Positions 29,118-47,177 of a DNA stretch of 64,000 nt are shown here, piece after piece (position 1 is the first letter of the stretch; each line of letters starts with the position of its first letter). The position numbers were made by a program, and so were the translations under genes. The stretch spans positions 372,001-436,000 of the forward strand of contig NZ_FOGD01000002.1 of NCBI RefSeq assembly GCF_900111115.1. The letters are read 5' to 3'. A model generated the notes under the pieces. That model was not told the origin of the DNA. It was given only the letters and a program-made list of their open reading frames with translations, and did no database searches. This DNA comes from Giesbergeria anulus (GTDB lineage Bacteria; Pseudomonadota; Gammaproteobacteria; Burkholderiales; Burkholderiaceae_C).

Positions 29118-29140
29118 CGTGCGATTGTGAACGATTACGA

Positions 29141-29941
29141 TTACAAGCGCACCGGAATACCACGGGCCGCCATGTGCTGTTTGGCCTGTTGCACGGTGTA
29201 TTCACCATAGTGAAATATGCTGGCGGCCAGCACAGCATCGGCGCCGCCTTGTTGCACGCCATCGGCCAAATGGTCGAGGTTGCCCACGCCGCCAGAGGCA
29301 ATGACGGGCACGGCCACGGTATCGCTCACGGTGCGCGTCAGGGCCAAATCGAATCCGGCCTTGGTGCCGTCGCGATCCATGCTGGTGAGCAAAATCTCGC
29401 CTGCACCACGCCGGGCCATGTCCGCCGCCCATTGCACCGCATCTAGGCCCGTGTTTTTGCGGCCACCGTGGCTGTAAACGTCCCAACCCATACCGACGGG
29501 CTGACCATTGGCACCGAGACGGGCTTCGTCTTGGGGCGTGCGGCGTTTGGCATCAATGGCTACCACGATGCACTGGGCACCGTACTTGGCCGAGGCAGCG
29601 TTGATAACGTCAGGGTTGGCAATGGCCGCCGAATTGAAGCTGACCTTGTCGGCCCCGGCGTTGAGCAGGCGGCGCACGTCTTCTACCGTGCGCACGCCAC
29701 CGCCCACCGTGAGAGGAATAAACACTTGGCTGGCTACGGCCTCAATGATGTGTAGGATCAGGTCACGACCATCGCTGGTGGCAGTGATGTCTAGAAAGGT
29801 GAGCTCATCGGCCCCTTGGGCGTTGTAGCGCGCGGCAATTTCTACCGGATCGCCTGCATCGCGCAGTTCAACAAAATTAACGCCTTTGACGACACGGCCT
29901 CCGGTGACGTCAAGGCAGGGGATGATGCGTTTGGCAAGCAT
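29141..29941 (-). CDS. hisF: Imidazole glycerol phosphate synthase, cyclase subunit
   Basis: 266-aa TIM barrel that uses ammonia from HisH to form IGP and AICAR. The N-terminal [20 protein letters not shown] with catalytic Asp, and phosphate loops such as [10 protein letters not shown], are conserved. In related genomes hisF directly follows hisA; here the galE-pel block separates them by 15 kb, so hisF needs a promoter of its own or read-through from galE. Confidence 0.96.
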
Positions 29942-29991
29942 GGCGCGGTAAATGTAGCAATGGAGAACAAGCGCAGGAAGATACCACGCGG

Positions 29992-31002
29992 CTAGGCCAC
30001 ACTGCGGGCCTCACCGTTCTGCCAGCGCCAAGCATCTTGGCACATGCGGTCAATGCCATGCTGGGCTTTCCAGCCCAATAGCTGTTGTGCCAAGCTGGGG
30101 TTGGCCCAACATTGGGCCACATCGCCGGGGCGGCGGCCCACGATCTGATAGGGGATGGAGCGACCGCTGGCGCGCTCAAAGCTGTGCACCATCTCTAGTA
30201 CCGATACCGGACGCCCTGTGCCTAGGTTGACAGTCAGTAAGCCGGGATGCTGGCGCAGATAACGCAGGGCAGCCAGATGCCCTTGCGCCAAGTCGGCCAC
30301 ATGGATGTAGTCGCGCACGCCGGTGCCATCGGGGGTGGGGTAATCGTTGCCATAAATGCTCAGACAACTGCGCTGGCCTGCGGCCACTTGGGCCACATAA
30401 GGCAACAAGTTGCCGGGTACGTCTTGCGGGTCTTCGCCGACCAGGCCACTCTCATGGGCCCCCACCGGGTTAAAGTAGCGCAGCCGAGCGATGTGCCACT
30501 GCCCCGGCTCTGCGGCATCCACATCAGCCAACACCTGTTCCATCATCAGCTTGCTCCAGCCGTAGGGGTTGGTGGCCGAGAGGGGAAAATCCTCACCAAT
30601 GGGCAGGGTGGCCGGTTCACCATACACCGTGGCCGAAGAAGAAAAAACCAAAGTGCGCACCTGCGCCTGCTGCATGGCCTGTAGCAAGGTGATGGTGCCC
30701 GCCACGTTGTTTTCGTAATAGCGCAAAGGGGTGGCTACCGATTGCCCCACGGCCTTGAGTGCCGCAAAGTGGATGACGGCATTGATCGGGTATTGGGCCA
30801 GCAACTGCGCCAGCAAGGCAGCGTCGCGCACATCCCCCTCAATGCACACAGGCACCGCACCGATAATGCGCCCCATGCGCTCCAGCACCGAGCAGCGGCT
30901 GTTGCTGAAATTGTCCAGCATCAAAAAAGGCAAGCCCGCTTGCGCCAATGCGATGCAGGTATGCGAACCGATAAAGCCAGCCCCCCCTGTGACCAAAATC
31001 AT
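29992..31002 (-). CDS. galE: UDP-hexose/UDP-N-acetylhexosamine 4-epimerase
   Basis: 336-aa extended short-chain dehydrogenase. It has the NAD-binding GGAGFIG, catalytic SSSATVYG and YxxxK in NPYGWSK, so it interconverts UDP-glucose/UDP-galactose-type sugars at C4. The residue equivalent to E. coli Tyr299 is Cys298 here ([14 protein letters not shown]), matching the human-type GDVAxCxANPS motif. A small residue at this place is what allows UDP-GlcNAc/UDP-GalNAc. It lies divergent to pelA, and UDP-GalNAc is the expected Pel precursor, so I infer a Pel-dedicated or dual-specificity epimerase, as for PelX in Pseudomonas protegens. It ends 50 bases before hisF. Confidence 0.93.
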
Positions 31003-31090: not shown

Positions 31091-31137
31091 AAATTTTAGC
31101 TAATGTTAATTATATTTAGATAGCATTTGTCTATAAT
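31091..31137 (+). promoter_or_regulatory. AT-rich pel promoter region
   Basis: A consensus TATAAT lies at 31132-31137 inside an unusually AT-rich stretch between galE and pelA. No good -35 is seen at 17 bases (ATTATA at 31109), which suggests an activator-dependent or H-NS-silenced promoter. Initiation near 31144 would exclude a TTG start at 31137 and favour GTG 31176. No clear FleQ box was found. Confidence 0.5.
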
Positions 31138-31175
31138 TGAATTTAAAAACAACTGTATTACAGGTTTCACGTTCT

Positions 31176-33986
31176 GTGCCCAAACTCGTCTCTCTGCTGC
31201 TGTGGACTCTGGGCATTTTGTTATCTATGCCAGTCCATGCTTTGCCCGCAGTGGCCTTGCATTACGGTGCAGCAGCCCCGCTGAGCGATCTGAAAGTATT
31301 TGACATCGTGGTGGTAGAGCCAGACCACGGCCATGACCCCCTGCTACACCAGCGCAGTGACAGCCAGTTGTACGCCTATGTGTCGGTGGCAGAGGTGCAA
31401 CCGTCACGCAGCTACTACCAAGACATTCCGGCGGCTTGGAAGCTGGCCCGCAATGGTGATTGGCAATCGGACGTGCTAGACCAAACGCCCGCAGACTGGC
31501 CTGAGTTCTTTGCCAGCCGGGTGGTGGCCCCGTTGTGGGCGCGCGGCTACCGTGGCTTCTTTCTGGACACGCTTGACTCTTACCGCCTAGCGGCCCAATT
31601 TGATGAAGCCGCGCAACAAGCGGGGCTGGTGCGGGTGATCGAGACGCTGCACCAACGCTTTCCGGGCATCCGCCTGATTTTGAATCGGGGCTTTGAAGTT
31701 GTGCCTCGCGTACGCGACAAAATTGAGATGGTGGCCGCCGAATCTTTGTTCCGAGGCTGGAATGCCAACAAAAAACGCTATGAAGAAGTCCCGGCGGCCA
31801 GCCGGGAATGGTTGCTAGGCCAATTGCAAACCATCCGACAGCAACAGGGCCTGCCGGTACTGGTGATCGACTATGTGCCGCCACAAGACCGCGCCTTGGC
31901 CCGTGCCACGGCCACCCAAATTCAGGCCCTGGGGTTTATTCCTTGGGTGAGTGATAGCCAATTGCACACCATTGGGGTAGGCAACATCGAATTGCTGCCC
32001 CGGCGTGTGCTGGTACTTTATGACGGCGACGAGACCGTCTCCCTCAACTACACCAACGCCCACCGCTACCTGCACATGCCGCTCAACCACATGGGCTACA
32101 TCGTGGAGTATGCCGATACCAAACAGCCTTTGCCCCAAGGCATTTATCGGGATCGCTATGCGGGTGTGGCTACTTGGTTCTCAGGCTTTGTGCCTGCTGC
32201 CAAGGGCAAAGAGTTGAGCCGTTGGCTGCTGGCCCGTGCGAGTGAAGGCATGCCACTGGCTTTAGTTGATGATTTTGGCTTTTTGCCCGACCGCAGTTGG
32301 GCCGAGCAGCTAGGGCTGCAAGTGGGCAACCTTGGTATAGAAGGCAGGCTACAGACCGTGCGTCAGCACCCAATGATGGGGTTTGAAATTGCCCCCCCAG
32401 TGCCGGGCCGTGAGTATGAGCCGGTGCGCTTGGTCGGCAAGTCAGCGGCGCAAGCTACCCCGCTGCTAGAGCTGCAAGATCAGCGCGGACAACGGGTGGT
32501 GGCCGGTGCCATCATGCCTTGGGGTGGCTTTATGCTCGACCCGTTTGTGCTAGTCGCACTGCCAGGCACCGAACAACGCCGTTGGGTGATCGACCCCTTT
32601 GCCTTTTTGACCCAAGCACTGCGTTTGCCGCCCATGCCAGTGCCCGATGTCACCACCGAAAATGGCCGCCGCCTGCTGATGGCGCACATTGATGGTGATG
32701 GCTTTCCATCTCGGGCTGAAATGGCTGGCAACCCCTTGGCCTCTGAAGTGCTGCTCAAGGAGGTACTGCAAAAGTACCGTATTCCACACACCATGTCGGT
32801 GATTGAAGCTGAAACTGCACCCGACGGCTTGTACCCACAGCAAAGCGCCCAGATGGAAGACATTGCCCGGCGCATGTTCCGGCTGCCCCATGTCGAAATA
32901 GCCAGCCACAGTTATAGCCATCCTTTTTTGTGGAACCAAGAAGTGAAACATGGCGTGTTCTTGGAAGAAACCCAAAAAGACTACCACCTAGAGTTGCCGG
33001 GCTACACTTTCAGTTTAGAGCGCGAGATTGTCGGCTCAGTCAACTACATCCAGCAACGGTTGGCACCGGCGGGCAAGAAGGTACAAATCATGCTCTGGAC
33101 AGGCGATACTGCCCCCAGTGGTGAAGCGCTGGCCATTGCCCACCGTGCTGGGCTGCTCAATATGAATGGGGGCGATACCTTTATCAATCGCAGCCAATCT
33201 TCGTTGACCGCCGTGCGCAGCCACGGCATCCAAAAAGATGGCTACATCCAGGTATTTGCGCCCATCACCAACGAAAATATCTATACAAACCTCTGGCAGG
33301 GGCCTTTCTATGGTTTTGAACGGGCCATTGAAACCTTCGAAATGACCGGCCAGCCACGGCGCATCAAAGCGGTAGATATTTATTACCACACCTACTCGGC
33401 CAGCAAGCGGGCCGGGCTTGAGGCGCTGCACAAAGTCTATCGTTGGGCCTTAGCGCAGCAGCTGCATCCAGTGTTTACCTCAGAGTACATTCGCAAAGTG
33501 CAAGATTTTTATGGTTACGCTGTGGCCCGTGATGGGCAAGGCTGGCGTGTGCGTGGCGGTGATGCCTTGCGTACTTTGCGCCTGCCTGCCAATTGGGGTG
33601 CGCCCGCACTGGCCCAAAGCCAGCATGTAGCTGGTTACCGCGAAGGCACCGAAGGCACCTACCTGCACCTGACAGGCAGTAGTGCCCACATCCAGACCCT
33701 AGAGAAAACAGCGCCCCCTCCACCTTTGCGCCCCTTCTTGTACGAAGCCAATGCACGCCTGAAAAAGTGGCAGGGCAACCCCCAGGCCACACAAACCGCA
33801 TTCACCCTACAAGGCCATGTACCACTGCAATTTAGCCTAGGCCACAGCAGCCACTGCCAAGTGCGTGCTGGGCAGCGGCTACTGGCCCCCATCCGCACCA
33901 CCACCACACCTGCAGGTGCCAATGTCCAGATGTTTGAGTTAACCGCGACCCATGCCGAGCTCCAGATCGTCTGTCCAAGCCACTGA
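31176..33986 (+). CDS. pelA: Pel polysaccharide deacetylase/hydrolase PelA
   Basis: About 936-aa periplasmic protein (P. aeruginosa PelA is 948). From GTG 31176 it starts with a good signal peptide (PKLVSLLLWTLGILLSMPVHA). The N-terminal glycoside hydrolase domain keeps acidic residues at Asp131 (RGFFLDTLDSY) and Glu189 (VAAESLFRGWN), which align with the catalytic pair of GH166. A Rossmann-like middle region follows. The polysaccharide deacetylase domain has AHIDGDGF (Asp506/508) and SHSYSHPF (His578, His582) as metal ligands. It deacetylates Pel, making it cationic, and can cut it. A TTG at 31137 is an alternative start. pelB overlaps its 3' end by 35 bases. Confidence 0.94.
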   Translation: MPKLVSLLLWTLGILLSMPVHALPAVALHYGAAAPLSDLKVFDIVVVEPDHGHDPLLHQRSDSQLYAYVSVAEVQPSRSYYQDIPAAWKLARNGDWQSDVLDQTPADWPEFFASRVVAPLWARGYRGFFLDTLDSYRLAAQFDEAAQQAGLVRVIETLHQRFPGIRLILNRGFEVVPRVRDKIEMVAAESLFRGWNANKKRYEEVPAASREWLLGQLQTIRQQQGLPVLVIDYVPPQDRALARATATQIQALGFIPWVSDSQLHTIGVGNIELLPRRVLVLYDGDETVSLNYTNAHRYLHMPLNHMGYIVEYADTKQPLPQGIYRDRYAGVATWFSGFVPAAKGKELSRWLLARASEGMPLALVDDFGFLPDRSWAEQLGLQVGNLGIEGRLQTVRQHPMMGFEIAPPVPGREYEPVRLVGKSAAQATPLLELQDQRGQRVVAGAIMPWGGFMLDPFVLVALPGTEQRRWVIDPFAFLTQALRLPPMPVPDVTTENGRRLLMAHIDGDGFPSRAEMAGNPLASEVLLKEVLQKYRIPHTMSVIEAETAPDGLYPQQSAQMEDIARRMFRLPHVEIASHSYSHPFLWNQEVKHGVFLEETQKDYHLELPGYTFSLEREIVGSVNYIQQRLAPAGKKVQIMLWTGDTAPSGEALAIAHRAGLLNMNGGDTFINRSQSSLTAVRSHGIQKDGYIQVFAPITNENIYTNLWQGPFYGFERAIETFEMTGQPRRIKAVDIYYHTYSASKRAGLEALHKVYRWALAQQLHPVFTSEYIRKVQDFYGYAVARDGQGWRVRGGDALRTLRLPANWGAPALAQSQHVAGYREGTEGTYLHLTGSSAHIQTLEKTAPPPPLRPFLYEANARLKKWQGNPQATQTAFTLQGHVPLQFSLGHSSHCQVRAGQRLLAPIRTTTTPAGANVQMFELTATHAELQIVCPSH

Positions 33987-36900
33987 GCGGCCTTTGCTGG
34001 CCCCTTACTGGCTGCTGCTGCTGTTAGCCACCATCGTGGGCGCTGGCCTGTGGCTGCTCTATCCTCGTCAGGATCTGGAGCGCCGTCTCAGCCAAGCAGG
34101 TGACCAATCGGCCCTGTCCACCAGCTACCTGCACAACCTGCTGCGCAGCGACGCCAACAACCCGCAACTGCGTCTGTTATTAGCCAAAGAACAGGGTCAT
34201 GAAGGGGCCATCAATTCGATGAGCGAGACGCTCAGACCGGCCCTCACGTCCGACGATCCCACCCTACGCCGCCAGGCCCTCTGGCTAGTGTGGGAAAGCA
34301 CCTATCGCACCTACCAACAAACCCCCAGCCAAGAAACCACAGTCCGCACCCAATGGCAGGCCACGTTGGTAGAGCAACTGCATACTTTGGTACACGAGAG
34401 CTGGCCCACAGAGCAACTACAACTCTTGACCCAACAAGCATTGGACTTGGAGCAGCAAACGATTGCCATCACGCTGCTGCGCCAGCAGGCCGTACAGCAG
34501 CGCCAGCCAGACAAGGCAGCACGGCTGTACGTACAGGCTGCACAGACTGCATTGGCCCATTCCAATTACGCGGCGTGTGCCCAGTTGTACCTATTGGCCC
34601 GCCAAGCTACACCAAATGGCCCACAGGCCAAGCCGTATTTTCGGGCGGCCATCGCTGCCATCCAGTCGAGCGGACAGCCAGTGCAAGCGCTGGAACTGGC
34701 AGAAAGAGAATTGGGAGCGCTGCACAGCGACAGCGAGATCATTGAGCTGCTGGTACAACTGGCGCGCGCCGCAGGCCGCCCCGACATTGCAGAGCGTTAT
34801 GTCAAGCAACTGCTGCAACTGGCCCTTTTGCAGCAATGGCAAACCAGCCAGTGGGCGCAAACGCTGTTGCCGTCTCCGTTACAAGCTGTCGCAGAGCGAC
34901 GCATGGCAGCTCTGCAAGCCGCGCCGCGCTATGAGGATCGGGCCTATCTGCTCGATCCATCCTTGTTGCAACACCCAAGCCATGATGCCGCCCAAAGCGC
35001 ATGGCAATCCTTGCCCGTCAGTCAGAAATCTCCCCCGGCAGTGGCCCCCGGACTGCCCTTTGACGACAAGGTTTACACCCTAGGCTACCAAGTATTCTTA
35101 GAAAACAAAAACCTAGAAGATGCTTGGCGCGTGGCCAAGGCGGCGGTGCAGCAGGCCCCGCAGCTCATCATCTGGCATGAGCGGCTGGCCCAAGTCTCTG
35201 AATGGACTGGCCGCTTGGAACTGGCGCTACCACACTGGCTGCGGGTAGCCCAACAGACACAAAGCCCAGTGGCTTGGCAGGCCGTGCTGCGTTTAGCGCC
35301 CGGCCAGTTTGATGATGCTGCACTGGTGGAAGCACTGCGTTACGAGCTACGCCGCAAGCCCGGCCAGCCCACTTTGCTGCAAGAGTTGGTGGATGCCTAC
35401 GAGCGTTTAGGCTCGCCCCAGCCTGCGCTCGATTACCTGCGCCAGCAGCCTGCCACCCCCAAAACCCTAGAAATGCTGGCTAACTTGGCCAAACGTGCCG
35501 GAGACCTCGACTTGGCCTTGACCAGTTGGCAACGCCTGTTTACCGATCCCACCCAGTTAACCCCCACGCTGGCCATGCGGGCCGCTGTATTGGCCCTGTT
35601 GCGTGGCCAAGCTGCCCAAGGACTGGCGTGGCTGGAAGCGGCACAAAAGAAGATCACGCCCAACACCACAGACAGCGCAACCTTCTGGCGACTCACGGCT
35701 CAGATGGCACAAGACCAGCAACGAGACCTCTTGGCCGTGCAAGCGTATCGCCAGTTGTTGGAAAACAAGGCTGCTGATGTGGGAGACTTTGATGCCCTGA
35801 TTCGGCTGTTGCAAACCCACCAACCGTTGGAGGCAGCAGAGGTAGCACTGCTAGCTTGGCAACAACTCGATCAGCCCCGCCACCTGATACTGGCTTTGGG
35901 CATTTATGCCAGCCTCAACCAGTGGCGTGATGTGCAACAGGTGCTCCAAAAACTAGACCCCACACCCCAAGCACAGCGACGCGCCTTGCACCGCTTGCGC
36001 CAAGAGCCAGAGTTTTTGCGTTTGGCCGGGCTTTGCTACCAAAACACCGGCCGCCGCGCCCAAGCGCGCCAGTATTACGAAGCTGGACTCAAACTGGCCC
36101 CACAGTCAGCTGCCATGCGCCATGCTCTGCTGTGGCTGTTTATTGAGAGCAACGATGCCGCCGCTTTGCGCGACCTGCTAGGCCGTTACGAGGCGCAATG
36201 GAGCCAAGACAAAGAGTTGCACGACGCACTGGCGTCGGCCTACCAATCGCTGTCGCTGCCCGCCATTGCCTTAGAGCGCTACTTGCAACCGCGCATTCAG
36301 GCCCACCGCAATGACCTGCTCTGGCTGATGAACTATGCCGATGCGCTAGACCAAAACCAGCAATCTGACCGTGCATGGCGTCTGCGTCGTGATCTACTTA
36401 GCCAAGAATGGCAAAAGGCTAACCGTGATGTCAGCACCACCCCATCAAGGGCGCGCTGGTTAACCGAAGAAGGCTTGAACACCACCCGGCGGCTGGCCCG
36501 CGCCCGCCTGCAACTGACGCAACGCCCCGGCGATGCCGGTTTGGCTACCCTGCGCGAGCTGCTGCGGCTAGACCGTGATGCCCGCAATGGTTTATCCAAT
36601 GCCGCCGCAGAAACCGCCATTGGCTGGTTGCAAGATGCTGGTGAATACACCGCCGAACGGGGCTTTTTGTGGCAGCAATACGCGCGCAGCCACAGCGTAC
36701 AGGCCAACCGGCCCCTGTGGGCAGAAATCACAGTAGCCTTGGCCGAGAAAGACAAGCCCGCCACTGGAGAATTGCTCGAAATTTTTGACGAACGCCTGCA
36801 GCGCTACGACCGGGTCAATGCCGCTGTGGCGGTGGGCAATGTGCGCTTGGCACAAAGCGCCGCCTTTGAGACCCAACACAACCAGCCCGACGATAACCCG

Positions 36901-37875
36901 TTGCACCAGCAACTGGCCGAGAACCTATTGGCTTTTAGCCCCTCTGGCACTGGTAATGTCGCTTCGCGCCAACTCGACCGGCTAGAGGAAAAAGAAACCC
37001 AAACACAGCTGCACTATCCATTGAGCCCAGCCCTGTCTTTGGGACTCAAAATGTTGCATACCGAACGGCAGACCACCGGGCGAGAAGGTCTGCGCGAGCT
37101 ATCACAAGAACGTGCCAATTACGGCAGCTTGCGCTGGCAGCAGCGCAGCGGCAGCTCTACCCAACTGCAACTGGGCTGGCGCGAAAGCCTTGCCCACTCT
37201 ACGCCGTGGCAACTTGAGCACCTGCAGCGCCTCGACAATCGCCTGTCATTGCACCTAGACTGGGGCCAGCAACTACCCACCCAAGAAAGTTTGGCCTTGC
37301 GCACAGGTGGCATGAAAGATCGCCTAGGCGTGGGTATGCGCTACCAAGCCACAAGGCTCGACCAAGTCACGCTGAACCATTGGCGCGAAAAATACCAGTG
37401 GCAAACCAGCGCAGAAGTGGGCAATGGGCAGCATTCAGCCCTCAGTTATACCCACAACTACCGCTTAGACACACCCACCGTGGATGTGGGCATTTTTTGG
37501 TCTAGCCACAGTTACGACCGGCGCAACACAGACGATTTTTCTGGCCCAGATCGTGCCTTGATCCGCAACCAGCCGCCCAGCCTGAGCAACGCAGAACGAG
37601 GCCCCTTGCTGCCCGATAATTTCCAGTTTTACGGTGTGCAACTGACCACCAACCTGCGCTTTGAGCACGACTACATCCGCGCTTTTGCGCCTATGGTCAG
37701 TGTGGCACCCACTTGGCACAGCCGCCAAGGGCTGGGCTACAGTTTGCGCCTAGGCTTGGCTGGTAGCCTGCTGGGTGCCGATCACTTGGGTTTGGTGTGG
37801 AGTGCAGGCAAATCTGGCTCACAAACCCCTGGACTGAGCCAAGAAGTGCAATTGAACTATCGCTATCATTTTTAA
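33952..37875 (+). CDS. pelB: Pel outer-membrane secretin-like porin PelB
   Basis: 1307-aa protein, somewhat longer than P. aeruginosa PelB (1193). One N-terminal membrane helix (YWLLLLLATIVGAGLWLLYP) anchors it in the inner membrane. A very long alpha-helical TPR superhelix fills most of the protein and spans the periplasm to bring PelA to the exit. The last 300 or so residues alternate in beta-strand fashion and end in LNYRYHF, a C-terminal Phe typical of outer-membrane barrels. ATG 33952 lies inside pelA, so translation is probably coupled. Confidence 0.93.
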   Translation: MPSSRSSVQATERPLLAPYWLLLLLATIVGAGLWLLYPRQDLERRLSQAGDQSALSTSYLHNLLRSDANNPQLRLLLAKEQGHEGAINSMSETLRPALTSDDPTLRRQALWLVWESTYRTYQQTPSQETTVRTQWQATLVEQLHTLVHESWPTEQLQLLTQQALDLEQQTIAITLLRQQAVQQRQPDKAARLYVQAAQTALAHSNYAACAQLYLLARQATPNGPQAKPYFRAAIAAIQSSGQPVQALELAERELGALHSDSEIIELLVQLARAAGRPDIAERYVKQLLQLALLQQWQTSQWAQTLLPSPLQAVAERRMAALQAAPRYEDRAYLLDPSLLQHPSHDAAQSAWQSLPVSQKSPPAVAPGLPFDDKVYTLGYQVFLENKNLEDAWRVAKAAVQQAPQLIIWHERLAQVSEWTGRLELALPHWLRVAQQTQSPVAWQAVLRLAPGQFDDAALVEALRYELRRKPGQPTLLQELVDAYERLGSPQPALDYLRQQPATPKTLEMLANLAKRAGDLDLALTSWQRLFTDPTQLTPTLAMRAAVLALLRGQAAQGLAWLEAAQKKITPNTTDSATFWRLTAQMAQDQQRDLLAVQAYRQLLENKAADVGDFDALIRLLQTHQPLEAAEVALLAWQQLDQPRHLILALGIYASLNQWRDVQQVLQKLDPTPQAQRRALHRLRQEPEFLRLAGLCYQNTGRRAQARQYYEAGLKLAPQSAAMRHALLWLFIESNDAAALRDLLGRYEAQWSQDKELHDALASAYQSLSLPAIALERYLQPRIQAHRNDLLWLMNYADALDQNQQSDRAWRLRRDLLSQEWQKANRDVSTTPSRARWLTEEGLNTTRRLARARLQLTQRPGDAGLATLRELLRLDRDARNGLSNAAAETAIGWLQDAGEYTAERGFLWQQYARSHSVQANRPLWAEITVALAEKDKPATGELLEIFDERLQRYDRVNAAVAVGNVRLAQSAAFETQHNQPDDNPLHQQLAENLLAFSPSGTGNVASRQLDRLEEKETQTQLHYPLSPALSLGLKMLHTERQTTGREGLRELSQERANYGSLRWQQRSGSSTQLQLGWRESLAHSTPWQLEHLQRLDNRLSLHLDWGQQLPTQESLALRTGGMKDRLGVGMRYQATRLDQVTLNHWREKYQWQTSAEVGNGQHSALSYTHNYRLDTPTVDVGIFWSSHSYDRRNTDDFSGPDRALIRNQPPSLSNAERGPLLPDNFQFYGVQLTTNLRFEHDYIRAFAPMVSVAPTWHSRQGLGYSLRLGLAGSLLGADHLGLVWSAGKSGSQTPGLSQEVQLNYRYHF

Positions 37876-37896: not shown

Positions 37897-38448
37897 ATGA
37901 TCCGTCCATCCTTTTTTTTGCGCGTCCTCCAATGGCTGCTGGTTACCACGTTACTGGCTAGCTTGGTAGCTTGCTCCACAGTAGACCACGGCAAGGCACC
38001 AACACTAGAACGCGGAGCAAGCTGGGTAGTGCTGCCGTTTGCCAACCACACAGAGACCCCGCTGGCTGGCAACCGTGCCGAAGCGGTGGCGTTGGCTCTA
38101 TTACAGGCGCAAAACATCGGTCAAATCAAGCGCTACCCCGGCAGCGTGCAACAAGAAGCCCTGTTTGATGGCACAGAGAGCAAACGCCAAGAAGATGCCT
38201 TGGCTTGGGCGCGTGAGCAAAACGTGCGTTACGCCTTAACCGGGGCAGTCGATGAATGGCGCTACAAAGTCGGGGTAGACGGTGAACCCGCCGCTGGCGT
38301 CACCTTAGAAATTGTAGATGTCAGTAGCGGCGATACCCTGTGGAGCGGCACTGGTGGCAAAAGTGGCTGGAGCCGCGAAGCTCTGTCTTCAGTAGCGCAA
38401 AAACTCATCCGCGAACTGCTGCGTGCAGGTTTGGCTAGTGTGCATTGA
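37897..38448 (+). CDS. pelC: Pel outer-membrane lipoprotein PelC
   Basis: 183-aa lipoprotein with signal peptide and lipobox LVAC; Cys26 is the acylated residue. In P. aeruginosa PelC forms a 12-subunit ring under the PelB barrel that funnels the cationic polymer. The body (WVVLPFANHTETPLAGNRAE, YALTGAVDEWRYKVGVDGEP) matches that fold type. Twenty-one bases separate it from pelB. Confidence 0.92.
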   Translation: MIRPSFFLRVLQWLLVTTLLASLVACSTVDHGKAPTLERGASWVVLPFANHTETPLAGNRAEAVALALLQAQNIGQIKRYPGSVQQEALFDGTESKRQEDALAWAREQNVRYALTGAVDEWRYKVGVDGEPAAGVTLEIVDVSSGDTLWSGTGGKSGWSREALSSVAQKLIRELLRAGLASVH

Positions 38449-38460
38449 TTGACCTTGTCC

Positions 38461-39834
38461 ATGTCTAGCGCCAGTGGCAATACACGCCATCAGGAGCCAT
38501 CACCACGCCCCCGCACACACGTCAGTAGTAGATTTGGCGGCTCCCCCTTGGGCAAGTTGGCCCCCACCGGCACACAGCCGTGGATTGTGCTGCTCGAAGC
38601 CTTGTTGCTGCCCGCCTTGGCGTTGGTGCTTGGCTGGTGGCTCAACCCCCAAGACCCGCTGTGGATCAATGCTGATTTTCAATGGGCTTGGCTCGCTCCA
38701 ATGGTGGTAGCACTGCGCTATGGCCCCCTGACGGGTTTGTTATCTGTCGGTGCCTTGTTGGCAGGATGGTGGCTATTGCAGCAAGGGCGCTACGAGCAGT
38801 TTCCGCAGGTATTCTTTTTGGGTGGCCTGATTTTGGTCATGCTGGTGGGCGAATTTTCGAGCCTGTGGGTAGCGCGTACCCGACGCGCCGAAAGCATGCA
38901 GCACTACCTGCACCAGCGCATGGAGCACCTGATCCGGCAGTATTACCTGCTACGCCTGTCGCACGACCGCCTAGAGCATGAGTTGATAGGCCGCCCCATG
39001 TCGATGCGCGACGCCCTCAAAACGCTGCGTGGCTTGGGCAGTACCCAGTCCGACGCCCAAACCTTGCTAGACCTGCTATCGCAATACTGCCAAATCAGTG
39101 CAGCCGCTTTGTACAGCATGCAAGGCGAGCAACTGGATACACAACCCTTGGCCAGCATGGGGGCTCCTAGCGCTTTAGACACCAATGACCCCTTGGTGCG
39201 CCAAGCCCTAGAAACACGCAAACTGTGCCACGTCGTGCAAACCTTAGCACTCAAGCAGCAAAGCCAATACCTCATCACAGCACCGCTACTGGATTTGGGT
39301 GGCGAGATCTATGGCCTGCTGGTGGTAGATGACATCCCATTCTTTGCGCTACAAGAAGAAAATCTACAAACCATCAATCTTCTGCTGGGCTACTACACCG
39401 ATGGATTGACCACCCAAGCGCTGGCACAACCGTTGTTGCAACACTGGCCCGACTGCCCGGCTGAATTTGCCTTTGAAATGCAGCGCCTGTGGCATATGCA
39501 CGAAACCACCGGGGTACCCAGCATGGTGGTAGCGTTAGAGTTCACCCCCACAGCCATTGAGCGCGATTTGCCGCAACAATTGCTGCGCCTGCGCCGTCTG
39601 ATGGACGAGACTTGGCTGATAGAAGGCCCAAGTCGGCAACTGCTGGCGGTGCTAATGCCTTTGGGCGATGCGGCCACCGCCGAAGGCTTTTTGGCCCGGC
39701 TAGAAAACTGGATCCATCAAAAAGCAAGCACTTCTCTGGCCGATGCGGGTATTTTTCCGCACCAGCTGCCCCTGAGCCAAACCCCTCCCCTCGCGCTGCT
39801 GCAACGCCTGCACGAAATCGCTGATGCTCAATAG
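38461..39834 (+). CDS. pelD: c-di-GMP receptor PelD
   Basis: About 457-aa inner-membrane regulator. Four hydrophobic segments near the N-terminus (LLEALLLPALALVLGWWL through LGGLILVMLVGEF) are followed by a coiled region, a GAF domain and a degenerate GGDEF domain. The GGDEF motif itself is lost (LAVLMPLGDAATAEG), but the inhibitory-site motif is kept as RLMD (Arg379, Asp382), the part that binds c-di-GMP in P. aeruginosa PelD. It should activate PelF when c-di-GMP is high. ATG 38461 is used; its end overlaps pelE by 11 bases. Confidence 0.92.
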   Translation: MSSASGNTRHQEPSPRPRTHVSSRFGGSPLGKLAPTGTQPWIVLLEALLLPALALVLGWWLNPQDPLWINADFQWAWLAPMVVALRYGPLTGLLSVGALLAGWWLLQQGRYEQFPQVFFLGGLILVMLVGEFSSLWVARTRRAESMQHYLHQRMEHLIRQYYLLRLSHDRLEHELIGRPMSMRDALKTLRGLGSTQSDAQTLLDLLSQYCQISAAALYSMQGEQLDTQPLASMGAPSALDTNDPLVRQALETRKLCHVVQTLALKQQSQYLITAPLLDLGGEIYGLLVVDDIPFFALQEENLQTINLLLGYYTDGLTTQALAQPLLQHWPDCPAEFAFEMQRLWHMHETTGVPSMVVALEFTPTAIERDLPQQLLRLRRLMDETWLIEGPSRQLLAVLMPLGDAATAEGFLARLENWIHQKASTSLADAGIFPHQLPLSQTPPLALLQRLHEIADAQ

Positions 39835-40840
39835 CAAGCTTGGACTCTCGGCGGTACTGATGGAGCTGTCTGCTTGGAGCGGCCCGGTGCTGCTGCATGA
39901 CCAGTCTGATACCGCACTAGCCAGCTACCTGCTGCTGCATGCTGTGGCCAGCACCTTGTTGGCCCTATTTACACTGCCTTTGCTGCCCAAAGAACAAACC
40001 CAACCGCGCAGCGCCGTCTTGGCCCTGATGGTACTGTGCAGCTATGCCGTGCCACTGGTGGGCTTTATCGGGGTTTTGGCAGCGGTACTGATTTTGCGCT
40101 ACCACCGCCCCACGCAAACCTTGACGCTGTTTGAGTCTTTGCAACTGCCTGAGTTTGACCAGCACCAGCGCCTCACAGGGGCCTTTCGCCAAACGGGCCT
40201 AGGCTCGTTTCTGGGCAACCGCGACGTGCCCATGACCTCGCGCATGCGCGCTATGGTGTCACTCCAACACGTATCGGGGCGCGTCGCATCCCCCTTGCTA
40301 CGCAATGCACTCAATGACCCCAGTGAAGATTTGCGCCTGCTGGCCTACGGCATGCTCGACAGCCTAGAGCAGCGCATCAGCCGGGCTGTAGACGAAGAGC
40401 TGCAAGCCCTGCGCATTGCCCGCGCCCGAGAAGGCACCGCCCGCCCCGGCCCCAGAACGCTCAAAGCGGTGCAGCACCTGTCTGATCTTTATTGGGAGTT
40501 CATCTACCAAGACTTGGCCCAAGGCGATCTGCGCGACTACGCCATTGCCCAATCGCTGCACTATTGCGATGAAGTCTTAAAACTGCAACCCAAAAATGCG
40601 CCACTGTGGCTGCGCAAGGGCCGCTTGCTGCACTCTCTGCGCCGCTTTGATGAAGCCGCACTAGCCTACCAACGCTGCGTCAGGCTGGGGCTGCCGCCCA
40701 CACGGGTACTACCCTACCAAGCCGAACTGAGCTTTGAGCGCCGCGACATCGTGCGCACCTATATGCTCATCGCGCAACTGGATGCCGGCGATTCTCTGCC
40801 CCGACTGCGTCCCATCATCGACTATTGGAAAACCTGCTGA
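39824..40840 (+). CDS. pelE: Pel synthase membrane subunit PelE
   Basis: 338-aa protein with two N-terminal membrane helices (LASYLLLHAVASTLLALFTL and SYAVPLVGFIGVLAAVLILR) and a cytoplasmic TPR-like helical region (GMLDSLEQRISRAVDEELQA, ALWLRKGRLLHSLRR-type repeats). In the Pel system it bridges PelD, PelF and PelG. Its start lies inside pelD and its stop shares a base with the pelF ATG (TGATG). Confidence 0.9.
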   Translation: MLNSKLGLSAVLMELSAWSGPVLLHDQSDTALASYLLLHAVASTLLALFTLPLLPKEQTQPRSAVLALMVLCSYAVPLVGFIGVLAAVLILRYHRPTQTLTLFESLQLPEFDQHQRLTGAFRQTGLGSFLGNRDVPMTSRMRAMVSLQHVSGRVASPLLRNALNDPSEDLRLLAYGMLDSLEQRISRAVDEELQALRIARAREGTARPGPRTLKAVQHLSDLYWEFIYQDLAQGDLRDYAIAQSLHYCDEVLKLQPKNAPLWLRKGRLLHSLRRFDEAALAYQRCVRLGLPPTRVLPYQAELSFERRDIVRTYMLIAQLDAGDSLPRLRPIIDYWKTC

Positions 40841-42387
40841 TGGACACCCCGCGCAAGCCTCCCAAGGCTCCCAGCGCCGACATCGCCCTGCTGCTAGAAG
40901 GTACCTTTCCTTACGTCAGTGGCGGGGTATCGAGTTGGATCAACCAAATCATCCGGGCCTATCCTGAATACCGCTACGCCATTGTGTTTTTGGGCAGCCG
41001 CCGCGCAGACTACAAAGGCTTTAGGTACGAGCTGCCCGCCAACGTAGTGCACTTTGAAGAGCACTATCTATACGACGACCTGGTAGCACCGGGCCTGCCT
41101 GCTCCTCGGTCTGGCAGCCCACTGGCCTTTGAGATGATGAGCGCGCTGATCGAATCCTTGCGCCAAGGAGATGCCAAGCGCACCCTCACCTTGGGGCTGC
41201 TGCGCCATCTGGTGCGTGAAATCATGCCCGACGGCCAACTCCAGTTGGACGATTTTCTCTACAGCGAGCTGTCTTGGCAGCTGCTGTGCGACACCTACCG
41301 GCGCTACTGCACCGACCCATCGTTTGTCGATTATTTTTGGACGGTACGGATCATGTTTCAGCCGCTGTGGCTGCTGGCGCGCATTGCCCACCAATTGATT
41401 CCGGTGCGGGCGCTGCACAGCGCCTCCACGGGTTACGCTGGCTGCTTGGGGGCCATGCTGCGCCAGCGCCGTGGCCTACCACTGATCTTGTCTGAGCATG
41501 GCATTTACACCAAAGAGCGCCAAATCGACCTGCTCAAGAGCGAGTGGATTCGGGACAACCGCAACGTCTTCCAGCGCGACCCCACCGAGCTATCCTATTT
41601 TCGCCAAATGTGGATTCGCTTTTTTGAGTGGATGGGCCGTTACTGCTACGAAGCCGCCAACCCGATCATTGCCCTGTACGAAGCCAACCGTCTGCGCCAA
41701 GTACAAGATGGTGCCAAGCCTGAGCGCACCTCTAACATCCCCAACGGCATCAACCTAGGGCGCTTTGCCCCACTGCGTGCGCAGCGGCCCGCCACGCCGC
41801 CGCCCGTGCTGTGCCTGATTGGCCGCGTTGTCCCCATCAAAGACGTCAAAACCTTTATCCGCGCCATGCGCCGGGTGGTCAATCAATTGCCCCAAGCCCA
41901 AGGCTGGATTGCTGGCCCGGCAGAAGAAGACCCCAGCTACGCCCAAGAATGTGAAAACTTGGTGCAAAGTTTGGGCCTACAAGCCCAAGTGAAGTTTCTT
42001 GGTTTTCAGAAAGTGGAGGCACTGATGCCGCAAATTGGGCTGGTGGTGCTCTCCTCCATCAGCGAAGCCCTGCCCTTGGTGATTTTGGAAGGCTACGCCG
42101 CAGGCGTGCCTACCGTCTCCACCGATGTCGGCTCGTGCCGCCAATTGATTGAGGGTCTAGACGCTGAAGATCGCGCCTTAGGCCCCAGTGGGGCCGTAGT
42201 CAACATTGCCGACCCCCAAGCCTTGGCCGATGCCTCCATTGCCCTGCTCACCGATACACCGGCATGGACACGGGCCAGCACCGCCGCCATTGCCAGAGTA
42301 GAGCGCTACTACACCGACGAGATGATGTTTAGCCGCTACCGCAAAGTATATGAACAGGCGCTGCAAGACCCCAAAGGAGCGCGCTGA
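40840..42387 (+). CDS. pelF: Pel glycosyltransferase PelF
   Basis: 515-aa GT4-family cytoplasmic polymerase (P. aeruginosa PelF is 507). The N-terminal LLLEGTFPYVSGGVSSWINQ is the PelF signature; the C-terminal sugar-nucleotide site shows the EX7E motif in SEALPLVILEGYAAGVP and GRVVPIKDVKTFIRAM upstream. It polymerises a UDP-N-acetylhexosamine, in known systems UDP-GalNAc with possible other sugars, into Pel. Its substrate may be supplied by the neighbouring galE product. Translation is coupled on both sides by 1-base overlaps. Confidence 0.95.
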   Translation: MDTPRKPPKAPSADIALLLEGTFPYVSGGVSSWINQIIRAYPEYRYAIVFLGSRRADYKGFRYELPANVVHFEEHYLYDDLVAPGLPAPRSGSPLAFEMMSALIESLRQGDAKRTLTLGLLRHLVREIMPDGQLQLDDFLYSELSWQLLCDTYRRYCTDPSFVDYFWTVRIMFQPLWLLARIAHQLIPVRALHSASTGYAGCLGAMLRQRRGLPLILSEHGIYTKERQIDLLKSEWIRDNRNVFQRDPTELSYFRQMWIRFFEWMGRYCYEAANPIIALYEANRLRQVQDGAKPERTSNIPNGINLGRFAPLRAQRPATPPPVLCLIGRVVPIKDVKTFIRAMRRVVNQLPQAQGWIAGPAEEDPSYAQECENLVQSLGLQAQVKFLGFQKVEALMPQIGLVVLSSISEALPLVILEGYAAGVPTVSTDVGSCRQLIEGLDAEDRALGPSGAVVNIADPQALADASIALLTDTPAWTRASTAAIARVERYYTDEMMFSRYRKVYEQALQDPKGAR

Positions 42388-43760
42388 TGGCGGGCATTGG
42401 GTTTGAACTGCGCCGCCTGCTGCGCAAAAACACCCTGCTGGGTTTGGCGCAGGCCTATACCTATGCAGGCGTGATTGGCTCTGGCCCGTGGATTTTCTCC
42501 ATTGTGGGCATTTTGCTGGTCGGGATTTTCAGTGCCAGCGTGGTCGTGCCTTCTTTTTTGGTCACACAGTTTCAAACCTCCGTAACCTATCTGGTAGCCA
42601 GCAGCTTGGTGTTTACCGGCTTGGTGCAGCAGGCCTTTACCCGCTTTGTCTCAGACCGCTTGTTTGAAAAGCGCCAAGAACTGATTTTGCCCAACCTGCA
42701 CGGCCTGCTGCTGGTAGTGATGGGTGCCGCCTGCGTGCTGGGCACGGTAGCCCTGTTTTGGCTGCTCCCCGGCGAGCGCCTGCTCTACCGCTTACTGATG
42801 CTGGCCGGGTTTGCCACCATGTGTGCGGTTTGGGTGCTCACGGTGCTGCTCTCGGGCATGAAGCACTACAAAGCCATCACCCTGCTGTTTGCGGGTGCCT
42901 ACACCCTGATTGTGATTGCCGCACTGCTGCTGCGGCCTTGGGGGTTAGAGGGCCTGCTGGGCGGCTTTTTGCTGGGCAATTTGGTGCTCATGGCGGGCAT
43001 GTGGCTGTTTATTGTGCATGACTTCAACCCCTCAGGGCCACTGATTGCTTTTGACTTTGCCCGGCGTGAACTGTGCTACCCCTCCCTGATAGCCGTGGGC
43101 TTTTTGTACAACTTTGGCATCTGGGTCGATAAGCTGATGTTTTGGTACTTTGAACCCACATCCCAGCAGGTGATTGGTAGCTTGCGTGCCTCGTTGATTT
43201 ACGATTTGCCAGTATTTTTGTCGTACCTGTCCATCATTCCGGGCATGGCGGTGTTTTTAGTGCGCATTGAGACCGACTTTGTCGAGTTTTACGACAAGTT
43301 TTACGATGCCGTGCGCGGCGGCGGCTCGTTGGAATACATCGAGTCTATGCACGATGAGATGGTCTACTCCATCCAACAAGGCTTGGTAGAAATTGCCAAA
43401 ATCCAAACCTTGGCCGTACTGGTCACGTTTGTGGCTGGCCCCGTGATCTTAGAGGCCTTGGGCATTTCACAGTTGTACCTGCCACTACTGTATGTGCAGG
43501 TGATAGGGGCGGGCTTGCAAGTGGGGCTGATGGCGGTACTGAATGTGTTTTTTTACCTAGACCAGCGCCGCATTGTGCTGTGGCTATGCGCGCAAGTGGT
43601 GCTACTCAATGTGGTACTGACCGGCATGAGCCAATACTATGGAGCCGCCCTGTATGGCTACGGTTTTACACTGGCCATGCTCATCACGCTGCTGACCGGG
43701 CTGGTTTTACTCACGCGCCAACTTAACCGTTTGGAGTATCAAACTTTTATGCTCCAGTAG
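42387..43760 (+). CDS. pelG: Pel inner-membrane transporter PelG
   Basis: 457-aa polytopic protein with about 12 membrane helices, of the polysaccharide transporter (MOP/PST-like) class. MAGIGFELRRLLRKNTLLGL and the first helix (YTYAGVIGSGPWIFSIVGIL) are typical of PelG. It should pass the growing polymer from PelF across the inner membrane together with PelD and PelE. Its ATG overlaps the pelF stop. It completes pelABCDEFG in the P. aeruginosa order. Confidence 0.94.
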   Translation: MAGIGFELRRLLRKNTLLGLAQAYTYAGVIGSGPWIFSIVGILLVGIFSASVVVPSFLVTQFQTSVTYLVASSLVFTGLVQQAFTRFVSDRLFEKRQELILPNLHGLLLVVMGAACVLGTVALFWLLPGERLLYRLLMLAGFATMCAVWVLTVLLSGMKHYKAITLLFAGAYTLIVIAALLLRPWGLEGLLGGFLLGNLVLMAGMWLFIVHDFNPSGPLIAFDFARRELCYPSLIAVGFLYNFGIWVDKLMFWYFEPTSQQVIGSLRASLIYDLPVFLSYLSIIPGMAVFLVRIETDFVEFYDKFYDAVRGGGSLEYIESMHDEMVYSIQQGLVEIAKIQTLAVLVTFVAGPVILEALGISQLYLPLLYVQVIGAGLQVGLMAVLNVFFYLDQRRIVLWLCAQVVLLNVVLTGMSQYYGAALYGYGFTLAMLITLLTGLVLLTRQLNRLEYQTFMLQ

Positions 43761-43800
43761 CATACAGGCCCGATCCCCTGTTGAATCTATAGCCCAGACC

Positions 43801-44961
43801 ATGCTGCCATTTTCTGCCGTGCAACGCACTCCCATTTGGCTCTGTGCCAGCTTACTGGCCGCCTGTGGTGGCGGCTCAGGCACTGCCCCCAGCATAGCCG
43901 TGGAAGTGACCGCCCCCAGCGCCCAAGCACCGGTGCTAGAGCTGCAAACGCCACTGCCCGTGGGGGCGACAGTAGAACTCGATGCCATGCCTGCCCCTGA
44001 TGCCACCCTAGTGCATTTCAGCAGCTCTGCGGGTTTATTGTCACCAGCCACCGCATCTACCCACCAAGGGCAAGCTAGCAGCTCTTTGCTTGGCACGGTG
44101 CCCGGACAACACACCCTGCGGGCCGAGGTCGAGGTGGCTGGGGTACGCGCCACAAGCAGCACACAAACCTTCTATTTGCGCCAAACGCCGGTGCCGCTAG
44201 AGGTGCTGGTGCCTGCGTATTTTTATCCATCCACAGGTTCGGACTGGACATTGCTAGCCTCCAGCGTGGCCGCGCTGCCCGGCCTGAAAGTTACGGCCAT
44301 TCTCAACCCCTCCAATGGCATTTTTACCAACGCCAATAGCCGCTATCTAGCAGCGGGGCGCGATTTTGTGCATGCGGGAGGACAACTGCTGGGCTATGTA
44401 CACACCAGCTATGGCAGTGGCGAACGCACCCTGGCCGACATCAAAACCAATATTGATCGTTATCTAGAACTGTATGGCCGCGAGTTAATCAGCGGTATAT
44501 TTTTGGATGAAATGAGCAACAAAGGCAGCACACTGGAGTTTTACCAGCAGTTGTACCGCTACATCAAGGCCAAAGACCCCAGCTTGCGTGTCGTTGGCAA
44601 CCCCGGAACCATACCGGCCTCAGAGTTGGCAGCCACCGCTGACGCCCTGATTACCTTTGAAGGCCAAGCGGCAAATTTTGCCCAGTACGATCCGCGCAAA
44701 ACGGGCGGCTGGCTTTACACCTTAAGCAACAGCAAACAAGGGGCGCTCATTCACACTGCCAGCACTTGCACCGCGATGCAAGCAGCCCTGCGTACAGCAG
44801 CCACAGCGCAAAGCAACAGCGGCTTGGTGTATGTCACCCACCGCCCATACGATTACGCCAGCAATACCGGTAATCCTTGGGCCAGCCTGCCCAGTTACTG
44901 GGCCAGCCTACTGAGCAGCGTTCATGCCCTCAACCAAGGCCAGCCCTTGCCCAACTGTTAA
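43801..44961 (+). CDS. Spherulin-4-like (GH135-type) lipoprotein after pelG
   Basis: 386-aa lipoprotein: signal peptide with lipobox LLAAC, Cys22 acylated, then a Gly/Ser/Thr linker and an Ig-like beta region (to about residue 135). From about residue 140 to the end it resembles the spherulation-specific family 4 barrel: [50 protein letters not shown]. Asp236-Glu237 and Glu287 (ALITFEGQ) fall where GH135 (fungal Sph3) has catalytic residues. Sph3 cleaves alpha-1,4-GalNAc polymers, and Pel is one, so I infer a Pel-trimming enzyme. It lies 40 bases after pelG. Its stop overlaps the hisA stop on the other strand. Confidence 0.85.
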
Positions 44962-45701
44962 GCCAGGCTCAGTTCGTCAGCGCGCGCTTGGGCGGCTTCA
45001 AAATCGAGGTCGCCAGAGTAAATGGCGCGGCCACAAATCACGCCCTGCACGCCTTCACTTTCAACGGCGCACAAAGCATCGATGTCGGCCATGCTGCCCA
45101 AGCCACCGGAGGCAATCACCGGGATAGTCACGGCTTGGGCCAACCTGACTGTGGCCTCGACATTGATGCCTGAGAGCATACCGTCACGGCCAATGTCGGT
45201 GTAGATGATGGACTCTACGCCCCAGTCTTCAAATTTTTTCGCCAGATCGGTGACGTTGTGGCCGGTCAGTTTGCTCCAACCATCGGTAGCTACTTTGCCA
45301 TCTTTGGCATCCAAACCCACAATGATGTGGCCGCCAAAGGCGGTGCAGGCATCTTTGAGAAAACCGGGGTTCTTGACGGCAGCGGTGCCAATGATGACGT
45401 AGCGCAAGCCACCATCAATGCAGCGCTCGATAGTGTCCAAGTCACGAATGCCGCCGCCAAGCTGCACCGGAATATCGTCCCCCACCTCACGCAAGATGGA
45501 TTTGATAGCCGCCAGATTTTGCGGCTTGCCAGCAAAGGCACCATTGAGATCGACCAGATGCAAACGGCGCGCACCCGCATCAACCCAGCGGCGGGCCATC
45601 GCTGCCGGGTCTTCACCGAAGGTGGTGGATTGATCCATATCGCCTTGTTTCAGGCGTACACAGTGGCCGTCTTTGAGGTCGATGGCAGGTATGAGCAACA
45701 T
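44958..45701 (-). CDS. hisA: ProFAR isomerase (HisA)
   Basis: 247-aa TIM barrel that isomerises ProFAR to PRFAR in histidine synthesis. [20 protein letters not shown] with the catalytic Asp, and [20 protein letters not shown], are diagnostic. Normally hisF follows at once; here the pel block lies downstream in convergent orientation, with the two stop codons sharing TTAA (44958-44961). Confidence 0.96.
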
Positions 45702-45805
45702 GGTGGGTTTGGCAAGAAAAGGCGGCCATCACAGCAATGGCCTGAACAAACAGAAAACGTGACAAAAAATACGGCAACACCTTGGAGGAGGGTACCGACC
45801 GGAGC

Positions 45806-46471
45806 TTAGGGGTTCCAGTGCAGAAAATTGCGATAGAGCTGCAAGCCCTGATCGGCACTCTTTTCTGGGTGAAATTGTGTCGCAAAAATATTATCGCGTG
45901 CAATGGCGGCGGCAAACCAGCCGCCGTAGTCGGCCTCGCCTGCGCAATGCTCAGGGTTTTGGGGCCGGGCGTAGAAGCTATGCACGAAATAGAAATAGCT
46001 GTTGTCTGGCACGCCTTGCCAGACCGGATGCACCGCGCCAGCATGGCTCACTTGGCGCACTTGGTTCCAGCCCATTTGTGGCACCTTGTAGCGGCTGCCA
46101 TCGGCTTGGCTGCGGCCTTGCAAATCAAACTTGACCACTTCGCCCGGAATCAACCCTAGGCCGGGGGTATCACCCTCGGCGCTGTGGTCAAGCAGCATTT
46201 GCATACCGACGCAAACACCAAACAGCGGCTTGCTGGCGGCGGCCTCTAATACCGATTGGCGCAGGCCCGATTGGGCCAGCTCACGCATACAGTCGGGCAT
46301 CGCGCCTTGGCCCGGCAGCACGACGCGCTGGGCAGCGCGCACTTGTTCGGGGTTGGACGTGACCTGCACCGTCCAGCCACTGCCTTGGGCAGCGGCTTGC
46401 ACAGCTTGCGATACCGAGCGCAGATTGCCCATGCCGTAATCGACTACGGCGACAATTTTCTGAGCAGTCAT
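45806..46471 (-). CDS. hisH: Imidazole glycerol phosphate synthase, glutaminase subunit
   Basis: 221-aa class I glutamine amidotransferase that feeds ammonia to HisF. The nucleophile Cys is in [17 protein letters not shown], and the His-Glu pair in [13 protein letters not shown] completes the triad. The N-terminus [12 protein letters not shown] is typical. ATG 46471 overlaps the hisB stop by one base. About 100 bases without a visible gene separate it from hisA. Confidence 0.96.
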
Positions 46472-47058
46472 CACAAAGAACCCTTGGTGGAGGGGATGGT
46501 GCCTGCGGCACGCGGGTCTAGCTCTAGTGCAGCGCGCAAAGCACGGGCAAAGGCCTTGAAAATGGTTTCGCACTGGTGGTGGGCATTGACGCCCTTGAGG
46601 TTGTCAATGTGCAGCGAAACGCCCGCATGGTTGACAAAGCCTTGGAAGAACTCAAACACCAATTGCGTATCGAGCTGGCCCAGCATACCGCTGGTGAATT
46701 TGACATCCATGTGCAAACCGGGGCGGCCAGAAAAATCCACCACCACGCGGCTTAAGGCCTCGTCCAGCGGCACATAGGCGTGGCCGTAGCGGCGAATGCC
46801 TTTTTTGTCGCCCACGGCTTGGGCAAAAGCCTGCCCCAGCGTGATGCCAATGTCTTCGACGGTGTGGTGGCCGTCAATGTGCAAGTCGCCTTGGCACTGG
46901 ATGTCCAGATCGATCAGGCCATGGCGAGCAATCTGTTCGAGCATGTGGTCAAGAAAACCAATGCCACTGTGCAGTTGCGATTGGCCTGTGCCGTCTAGAT
47001 TGAGACGCACAGTAATTTGGGTTTCCAGCGTATGGCGGGTAACGTCGGCTTGACGCAT
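46471..47058 (-). CDS. hisB: Imidazoleglycerol-phosphate dehydratase
   Basis: 195-aa monofunctional dehydratase without a phosphatase domain. The manganese-binding His-rich repeats are visible: [36 protein letters not shown] and [16 protein letters not shown] 47058 is preferred to GTG 47070. Because hisC upstream is inverted, hisB now begins its own unit; TATCAT on the minus strand at 47103-47098 may be its -10, without a clear -35. Confidence 0.96.
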
Positions 47059-47177
47059 GTCGTGGGGCACTCGTTCAGGGGTGATGGAAAGCTGGGCATG
47101 ATAGCATCCAGCGCCTGAGCGGCAGCCCCTGTCCCTGTCTGTTACAACGCTGCCGCCCCTCCTTGGGAAGCTACTGT

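Follow-up and report, generated by a model that had tools for sequence, protein, structure and literature searches.

Why would a pel operon, whose PelA already has a hydrolase domain, end in a gene for a second putative glycoside hydrolase? The question is raised by the open reading frame that follows pelG in the DNA analysed here (64 000 nucleotides from Giesbergeria anulus, hereafter the window). This frame lies on the same strand as pelG, with its start 40 bp beyond the pelG stop codon, and encodes a polypeptide of 386 amino acids. An original prediction, made from the sequence, had described the product as a lipoprotein with an Ig-like spacer and a GH135-like barrel, and had suggested a two-hydrolase Pel system for release or remodelling of the biofilm matrix; the frame was found at the position and in the reading that it gave. 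Features of the locus are listed in Table 1.

Table 1. Features of the pel locus and of the GH135 lipoprotein gene (positions are those of the window)
Feature	Position	Strand	Basis or remark
galE, divergent from pelA, with Cys in place of E. coli Tyr299; probably supplies UDP-GalNAc	29992..31002	-	
PelA, GH166 hydrolase and deacetylase domain	31137..33986	+	checked active-site residues kept
PelB	33952..37875	+	B-barrel_PelB_C
PelC	37897..38448	+	position and weak LpoB-like match under cut-off
PelD	38449..39834	+	PelD_GGDEF
PelE	39824..40840	+	position and TPR matches under cut-off
PelF, first ATG 40840	40825..42387	+	NF038011, E 1.1e-239
PelG	42387..43760	+	PF16933, E 4.5e-152
Spherulin4/GH135 lipoprotein gene, final gene of the pel run	43801..44961	+	ORF and profile
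Lipoprotein signal peptide with lipobox LAAC, Cys22 then Gly-Gly	43801..43866	+	no Asp at +2
Spacer, weakly Ig-like (Big_1 under cut-off)	43867..44196	+	Pfam
Spherulin4/GH135 barrel, residues 134-373	44200..44919	+	profile and predicted fold
Codons D236-E237	44506..44511	+	Sph3 alignment
Codon E287, opposite Sph3 Glu222	44659..44661	+	Sph3 alignment; Glu222 named in PMC12054363

The 3' end of the lipoprotein gene overlaps the end of the convergent hisA by 4 bp, and hisF and hisI lie beyond galE, so that the galE-pel-GH135 cassette splits a group of histidine genes. The borders of the cassette comprised galE with hisF/hisI in 28728-31002 and hisA followed by hisH and hisB in 44958-47070 (hisH and hisB were named by eye), and this site inside the histidine cluster was common to many relatives. 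A search of 43000-45200 for promoter- and terminator-like sites gave none, a result of little weight given that shuffled sequences averaged 1.0 and 2.8. In all 15 loci with the upstream side covered, galE adjoined pelA. A small residue at the position of E. coli GalE Tyr299 is described as opening the pocket for N-acetyl sugars (PMC6668579); a Cys occupies this position in the window and in six other gene-bearing loci with galE covered there, and the galE product here probably handles UDP-GalNAc too. The same Cys was also present in galE adjoining pel loci that have no GH135 gene.

Assignment of the product to GH135 was based on profile and structure searches. The Pfam family Spherulin4 (PF12138) matched residues 134-373 well above its threshold (E 2.9e-46; 158.4 bits against a cut-off of 30.2), and the match spanned profile positions 1-238 of 239, corresponding to the whole barrel. 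A phmmer search of the PDB identified as sole credible relatives the entries 5c5g (E 7.5e-16) and 5d6t (E 9.1e-16), the two other matches having E-values of 0.24 and 0.26; both entries represent Sph3 of Aspergillus clavatus, the protein for which GH135 was created (PMC12054363). In the phmmer alignment D236-E237 fell on 'FFDE' of Sph3 and E287 on the Glu of 'VVFE', in agreement with the catalytic places proposed for these acids originally. We take the catalytic residues of Sph3 to be D166, E167 and E222. Glu222 is also named in PMC12054363, whose structural analysis section prints Asp196 as the nucleophile; by hand count in the Sph3 alignment Asp196 falls on the non-conserved Ser261 of the lipoprotein, so that the beta-4 Asp was probably meant and the number misprinted.

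Modelling of the whole protein gave a poor result (mean pLDDT 58.5); the domain alone, predicted from three sequences with two relatives added, reached moderate confidence (mean pLDDT 72.8). Foldseek placed 5c5g (E 3e-10) and 5d6t (E 4.5e-10) on top, followed by a match with E 7.7e-7, and the VIA-align comparison with Sph3 gave a Z of 16.9 and an rmsd of 3.6 over 224 aligned residues, with Z 15.4 for the next row. The predicted barrel was thus nearest to Sph3 rather than unrelated to GH135. PelA structures were not among the best 50 structure-comparison rows listed, which excludes nothing, and the Pfam and PDB searches returned no match of the lipoprotein to PelA or PF03537 (GH114), an absence that proves nothing. 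Searching NCBIfam profiles up to E 1 gave zero matches. Spherulin4 relatives found in a plasmid search were 23–37% identical and annotated as 'spherulation-specific family 4 protein'. Judged by profile and, with less weight than the sequence evidence, by modelled fold, the product is a member of GH135. The domain is near-neutral in charge, which fits a neutral substrate weakly, and its charge differed weakly from that of the PelA hydrolase.

The N-terminal lipobox signal supports the claim of a lipoprotein, and Cys22, Gly23 and Gly24 were invariant in the 20 copies of the gene found adjacent to pelG. In E. coli, lipoproteins without Asp at position +2 are sorted to the outer membrane; because Gly and not Asp follows the Cys here, the mature lipoprotein would probably be sorted there as well. 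Against Pfam Big_1 the spacer gave an E-value of 0.01, under the cut-off, and Big_1 matched at E<=0.1 in 11/20 pelG-adjacent copies. The spacer is not essential, since three loci (L003, L052 and L053) have a short linker in its place. The Ig-like spacer of the original prediction can therefore be kept as a weak, sub-threshold resemblance and not as a constant part of the protein.

Residues 38-913 of PelA in the window could be aligned to a solved structure of PelA, 9cgy. Both GH166 acids and the six checked deacetylase positions were present in PelA of 15/15 gene-bearing loci, so that the hydrolase domain attributed to PelA is intact. With these residues kept, the GH135 lipoprotein is predicted to be a second hydrolase and not a replacement for that of PelA.

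A search for related loci gave L002, with 94% identity, and L003, whose best segment (residues 133-386) reached 52%; in each of them pelB to pelG lie in order ahead of the GH135 gene. Among the 299 genomes of the family set, Spherulin4 was identified in 36, PelG above cut-off in 41 (omitting two sub-cut-off matches, G865 and G975) and both in 26. In one genome (G794) the PelG match is split in two pieces ~66 kb apart. The order set of 399 genomes contained 12 with Spherulin4, 43 with PelG and 11 with both. PelG was thus found in 26/36 Spherulin4 genomes against 15/263 others in the family set (Fisher p 5e-19) and in 11/12 against 32/387 in the order set (Fisher p 7e-11), two sets that overlap in genomes and tests that ignore descent. 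Counted by hand at genus level, PelG occurred in 12 of 19 Spherulin4 genera, and a PelG match at E<=0.001 in 12 of 122 other genera of the family set. The phylum set (398 genomes) held nine with Spherulin4, three of them beyond the family and order sets, and one of these three has PelG. Exceptions in the family set were 10/36 Spherulin4 genomes without PelG and 15/41 PelG genomes without Spherulin4; in 11 of the 26 genomes with both, the genes were not adjacent.

The context survey that the original prediction had proposed bore out the association of the gene with pelG. In 15/36 Spherulin4 genomes of the family set, from six genera, the gene lies directly downstream of pelG on the same strand; with L002 and L003 this makes 17 loci and 20 copies, three genomes (G171, G984 and G1017) having tandem pairs. 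Computed from the earliest start giving a lipobox, the gap to pelG was 8–86 bp in all of the loci that could be placed by script, 16 of the 17. The next gene was hisA in 14/17 loci; two others (L003 and L054) stop at the contig end, and in L046 the 2.4 kb obtained past the gene contain no hisA. As most adjacent copies occupy one site beside hisA, much of the adjacency is a single inherited arrangement and the genome counts are not independent. In G133, G1041 and G895 the GH135 gene lies by hisA with pel elsewhere. Strand, short gap and conservation qualify the gene as a predicted member of the pel operon.

Spherulin4 genes were also found in non-pel contexts (eight loci sampled). The suggestion that order-level relatives carry the gene in an exopolysaccharide cluster was rejected as a general rule, the sampled neighbours being varied (DsbC, methyltransferase, FAD monooxygenase and ABC transporter genes). 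At one locus (L079:8528-15898) the GH135 gene is followed by genes for a GMC oxidoreductase, a sugar transferase, a UDP-glucose dehydrogenase and an epimerase. Nor did the sample of other pel operons scanned show a different hydrolase in the place behind pelG: the 10 scanned ORFs near pelG, drawn from a set of 20 loci without linked Spherulin4, included no glycoside hydrolase (AbrB in three cases, a metallo-beta-lactamase, an FAA hydrolase, a hexapeptide protein, an AAA protein, an aldose epimerase and two unmatched). Five pel operons without the GH135 gene (L083, L084, L086, L087 and L092) have PelB as two ORFs of about 300 aa and about 990-1120 aa with overlapping ends.

Comparison with L002 gave a dN/dS of 0.12 for the GH135 gene (domain 0.10, spacer 0.13) and of 0.04–0.10 for the five pel genes measured; the gene is under purifying selection. 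Over the 17 loci, lipoprotein distances correlate with PelG distances (Mantel r 0.71, p 1e-4), the correlation of PelF with PelG being closer (0.85), and the lipoprotein evolves faster than PelG (mean identity 54% against 82%).

A phylogenetic tree was based on 55 rows, by hand count every Spherulin4 match listed in the related-loci, order, phylum and family searches; partial second envelopes of <180 aa from proteins already included were left out. The pel-linked copies formed one clade of 31 rows with support 100/100. Within it, 25 rows all have the three acids and all come from PelG genomes; the remaining six (L059, L075, L076, L077, L103 and L104) form a subclade of lipoprotein-like, off-locus paralogues, in which L059 keeps all three acids and 5/6 have lost one or two (GEE, DGS, DGA, DGA and DGT). 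These five resemble pseudoenzymes in sequence, and the paralogues of L075 and L076 have an AI-2E transporter gene as neighbour. The 24 rows outside the clade comprised 22 DEE and two DQE, one DQE row (L018) coming from a PelG genome.

Loss of the acids beside pelG would have spoken against a Pel hydrolase, and was not seen: D236, E237 and E287 were kept in 20/20 adjacent copies, compared with 6/11 non-adjacent members of the clade. This contrast is only suggestive, since the Fisher value of 0.003 was calculated on copies and the losses amount to few events in the phylogeny. A dependence of acid loss on the loss of pel was considered and rejected: L075, L076 and L077 are in genomes without PelG, but L103 (GEE) and L104 (DGS), second copies in two PelG genomes that also hold an intact copy beside pelG, have lost acids as well. 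Acid loss therefore marks the off-locus subclade and not pel-less genomes.

Taken together, we consider it fairly probable (roughly 0.6) that the product is an endo-acting alpha-1,4-N-acetylgalactosaminidase of GH135, anchored in the outer membrane and acting on the Pel of its own operon. We infer the reaction and the preference for acetylated GalNAc by analogy with relatives; the sorting to the outer membrane, the side of the membrane and a role in length control or editing are put forward as suggestions. GalE would supply UDP-GalNAc to PelF, PelF and PelG would polymerise the GalNAc polymer and move it across the inner membrane, and the bifunctional PelA would deacetylate and cut it. The GH135 lipoprotein, sitting at the outer membrane near PelB/PelC, would then cut still-acetylated stretches that PelA had not deacetylated, if the preference of Sph3 is kept, so that chain length is set or poorly deacetylated polymer is cleared. 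Our leading reading is such a role in length control or in the removal of badly processed chain; the enzyme could make sense in another way if Pel of this lineage were more acetylated.

According to PMC9135694, the PelA hydrolase tolerates GalN in the chain and Sph3 is specific for poly-GalNAc; Sph3 degraded re-N-acetylated Pel and, unlike the PelA domain, released no oligosaccharides from native P. aeruginosa Pel. It is further described as breaking GalNAc-rich Pel aggregates of Streptococcus intermedius and as not disrupting P. aeruginosa Pel biofilms (PMC12345266). Trimming of acetylated stretches is for this reason likelier than dispersal, in which a surface-flipped lipoprotein would cut the Pel of the finished matrix and free the cells. 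The lipoprotein has a Gly-rich linker and most copies also a spacer, which might extend into the matrix, and loss of PelA hydrolysis in P. aeruginosa led to more adherent biomass, PelA hydrolysis being reported to yield secreted Pel and to alter matrix mechanics (PMC9894940). Mature Pel should, however, be deacetylated, as PelA retains the examined deacetylase residues in 15/15 loci, and we regard dispersal as unlikely. Of the original proposal the two-hydrolase system is supported as a prediction, with GH135 beside an intact PelA, and matrix release is its weakest step. An extra hydrolase can also be dispensable, as S. intermedius showed unchanged aggregation once its stand-alone pel hydrolase had been deleted (PMC12345266).

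An enzyme with a target other than Pel, used in scavenging or in defence against foreign galactosaminogalactan-like polymers and merely inheriting its position by pel, would agree with the family-set genomes that have Spherulin4 and no PelG, with the unrelated neighbours in sampled loci and with the relatives on plasmids. We think this improbable: the pel-linked copies are one fully supported clade, its 25 rows outside the off-locus subclade are all intact and all from PelG genomes, Spherulin4 and PelG co-occur, and the spacing to pelG is short. The acid-less paralogues keep many other invariant residues, which makes binding without cutting plausible for the fold; that the pelG-adjacent copies are themselves idle, tethering Pel to the outer membrane as GalNAc-polymer-binding lipoproteins, is nonetheless very improbable with D, E and E kept in every one of them.

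Beyond the trimming hydrolase that we favour, we put forward more tentatively a broader proposal, which may well not hold in full: that two hydrolases read acetylation, PelA cutting partly deacetylated and GH135 acetylated chain, in parallel with the fungal galactosaminogalactan (GAG) cluster, and with paralogues that bind polymer without cutting. If so, one bacterial locus would repeat all activities of that cluster with largely different parts (a UDP-GalNAc-type GalE, the PelF synthase, the PelA deacetylase and two hydrolases), and the escaped paralogues would now be non-cutting polymer-binding lipoproteins.

GH135 in a pel operon was not reported among the literature matches listed, a set with most subscription journals outside its scope and some sources available in part, and in that range the original statement of knowing no described canonical pel operon with this gene held. 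The words 'spherulin', 'GH135' and 'Sph3' occur neither in the main text of PMC7112194, a survey of pel operons, nor in that of PMC7112168. The enzyme family is already known; its arrangement in a pel operon is, within the literature covered, a new one. Most members of these hydrolase families are described as bacterial, and the GH135 enzyme named as characterised is fungal (PMC12054363); bacterial GH135 enzymes here gain a genomic context. Why Pel systems carry hydrolases has been answered in part only, as far as PMC9894940 goes, and a naturally evolved two-hydrolase version, probably with differing acetylation preference, makes the question testable. A bacterial GH135 enzyme tuned to Pel might also serve as a tool for reading Pel acetylation and breaking biofilms.

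Among known systems, Sph3 of Aspergillus has the profile family, the predicted barrel and the aligned acids in common with the lipoprotein. A further likeness is that the GAG cluster, in which Sph3 acts, also provides a GalNAc polymer synthase and a deacetylase; in fungi synthesis of the polymer requires Sph3, whose proposed function is to keep clogging from occurring (PMC12054363). The lipoprotein is ~25% identical to Sph3 and differs in being bacterial, lipobox-anchored and part of a pel operon in which a GH166 hydrolase is already present. The latter, the hydrolase domain of PelA, belongs to the same operon, is expected to act on the same polymer and is a barrel whose matching strand bears an Asp, but is of another family and fused to a deacetylase. 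Separate hydrolase genes at pel loci are known from Bacillus cereus (BCE_5582/PelAH) and S. intermedius (SIR_1591), Gram-positive loci whose PelA is described as having no hydrolase domain of its own (PMC7112168, PMC12345266), whereas PelA here keeps one. Unlike those stand-alone enzymes, the extra enzyme here belongs to GH135 and is predicted to be lipid-anchored. The fungal GAG cluster comprises an epimerase, a synthase, the deacetylase Agd3, Sph3 and Ega3, its synthase and export machinery differing from those of pel. It offers the same activities as the locus described here, namely epimerase, synthase, deacetylase and two galactosaminidases, with the second hydrolase belonging to GH114 in the fungal cluster and to GH166 in the pel operon.
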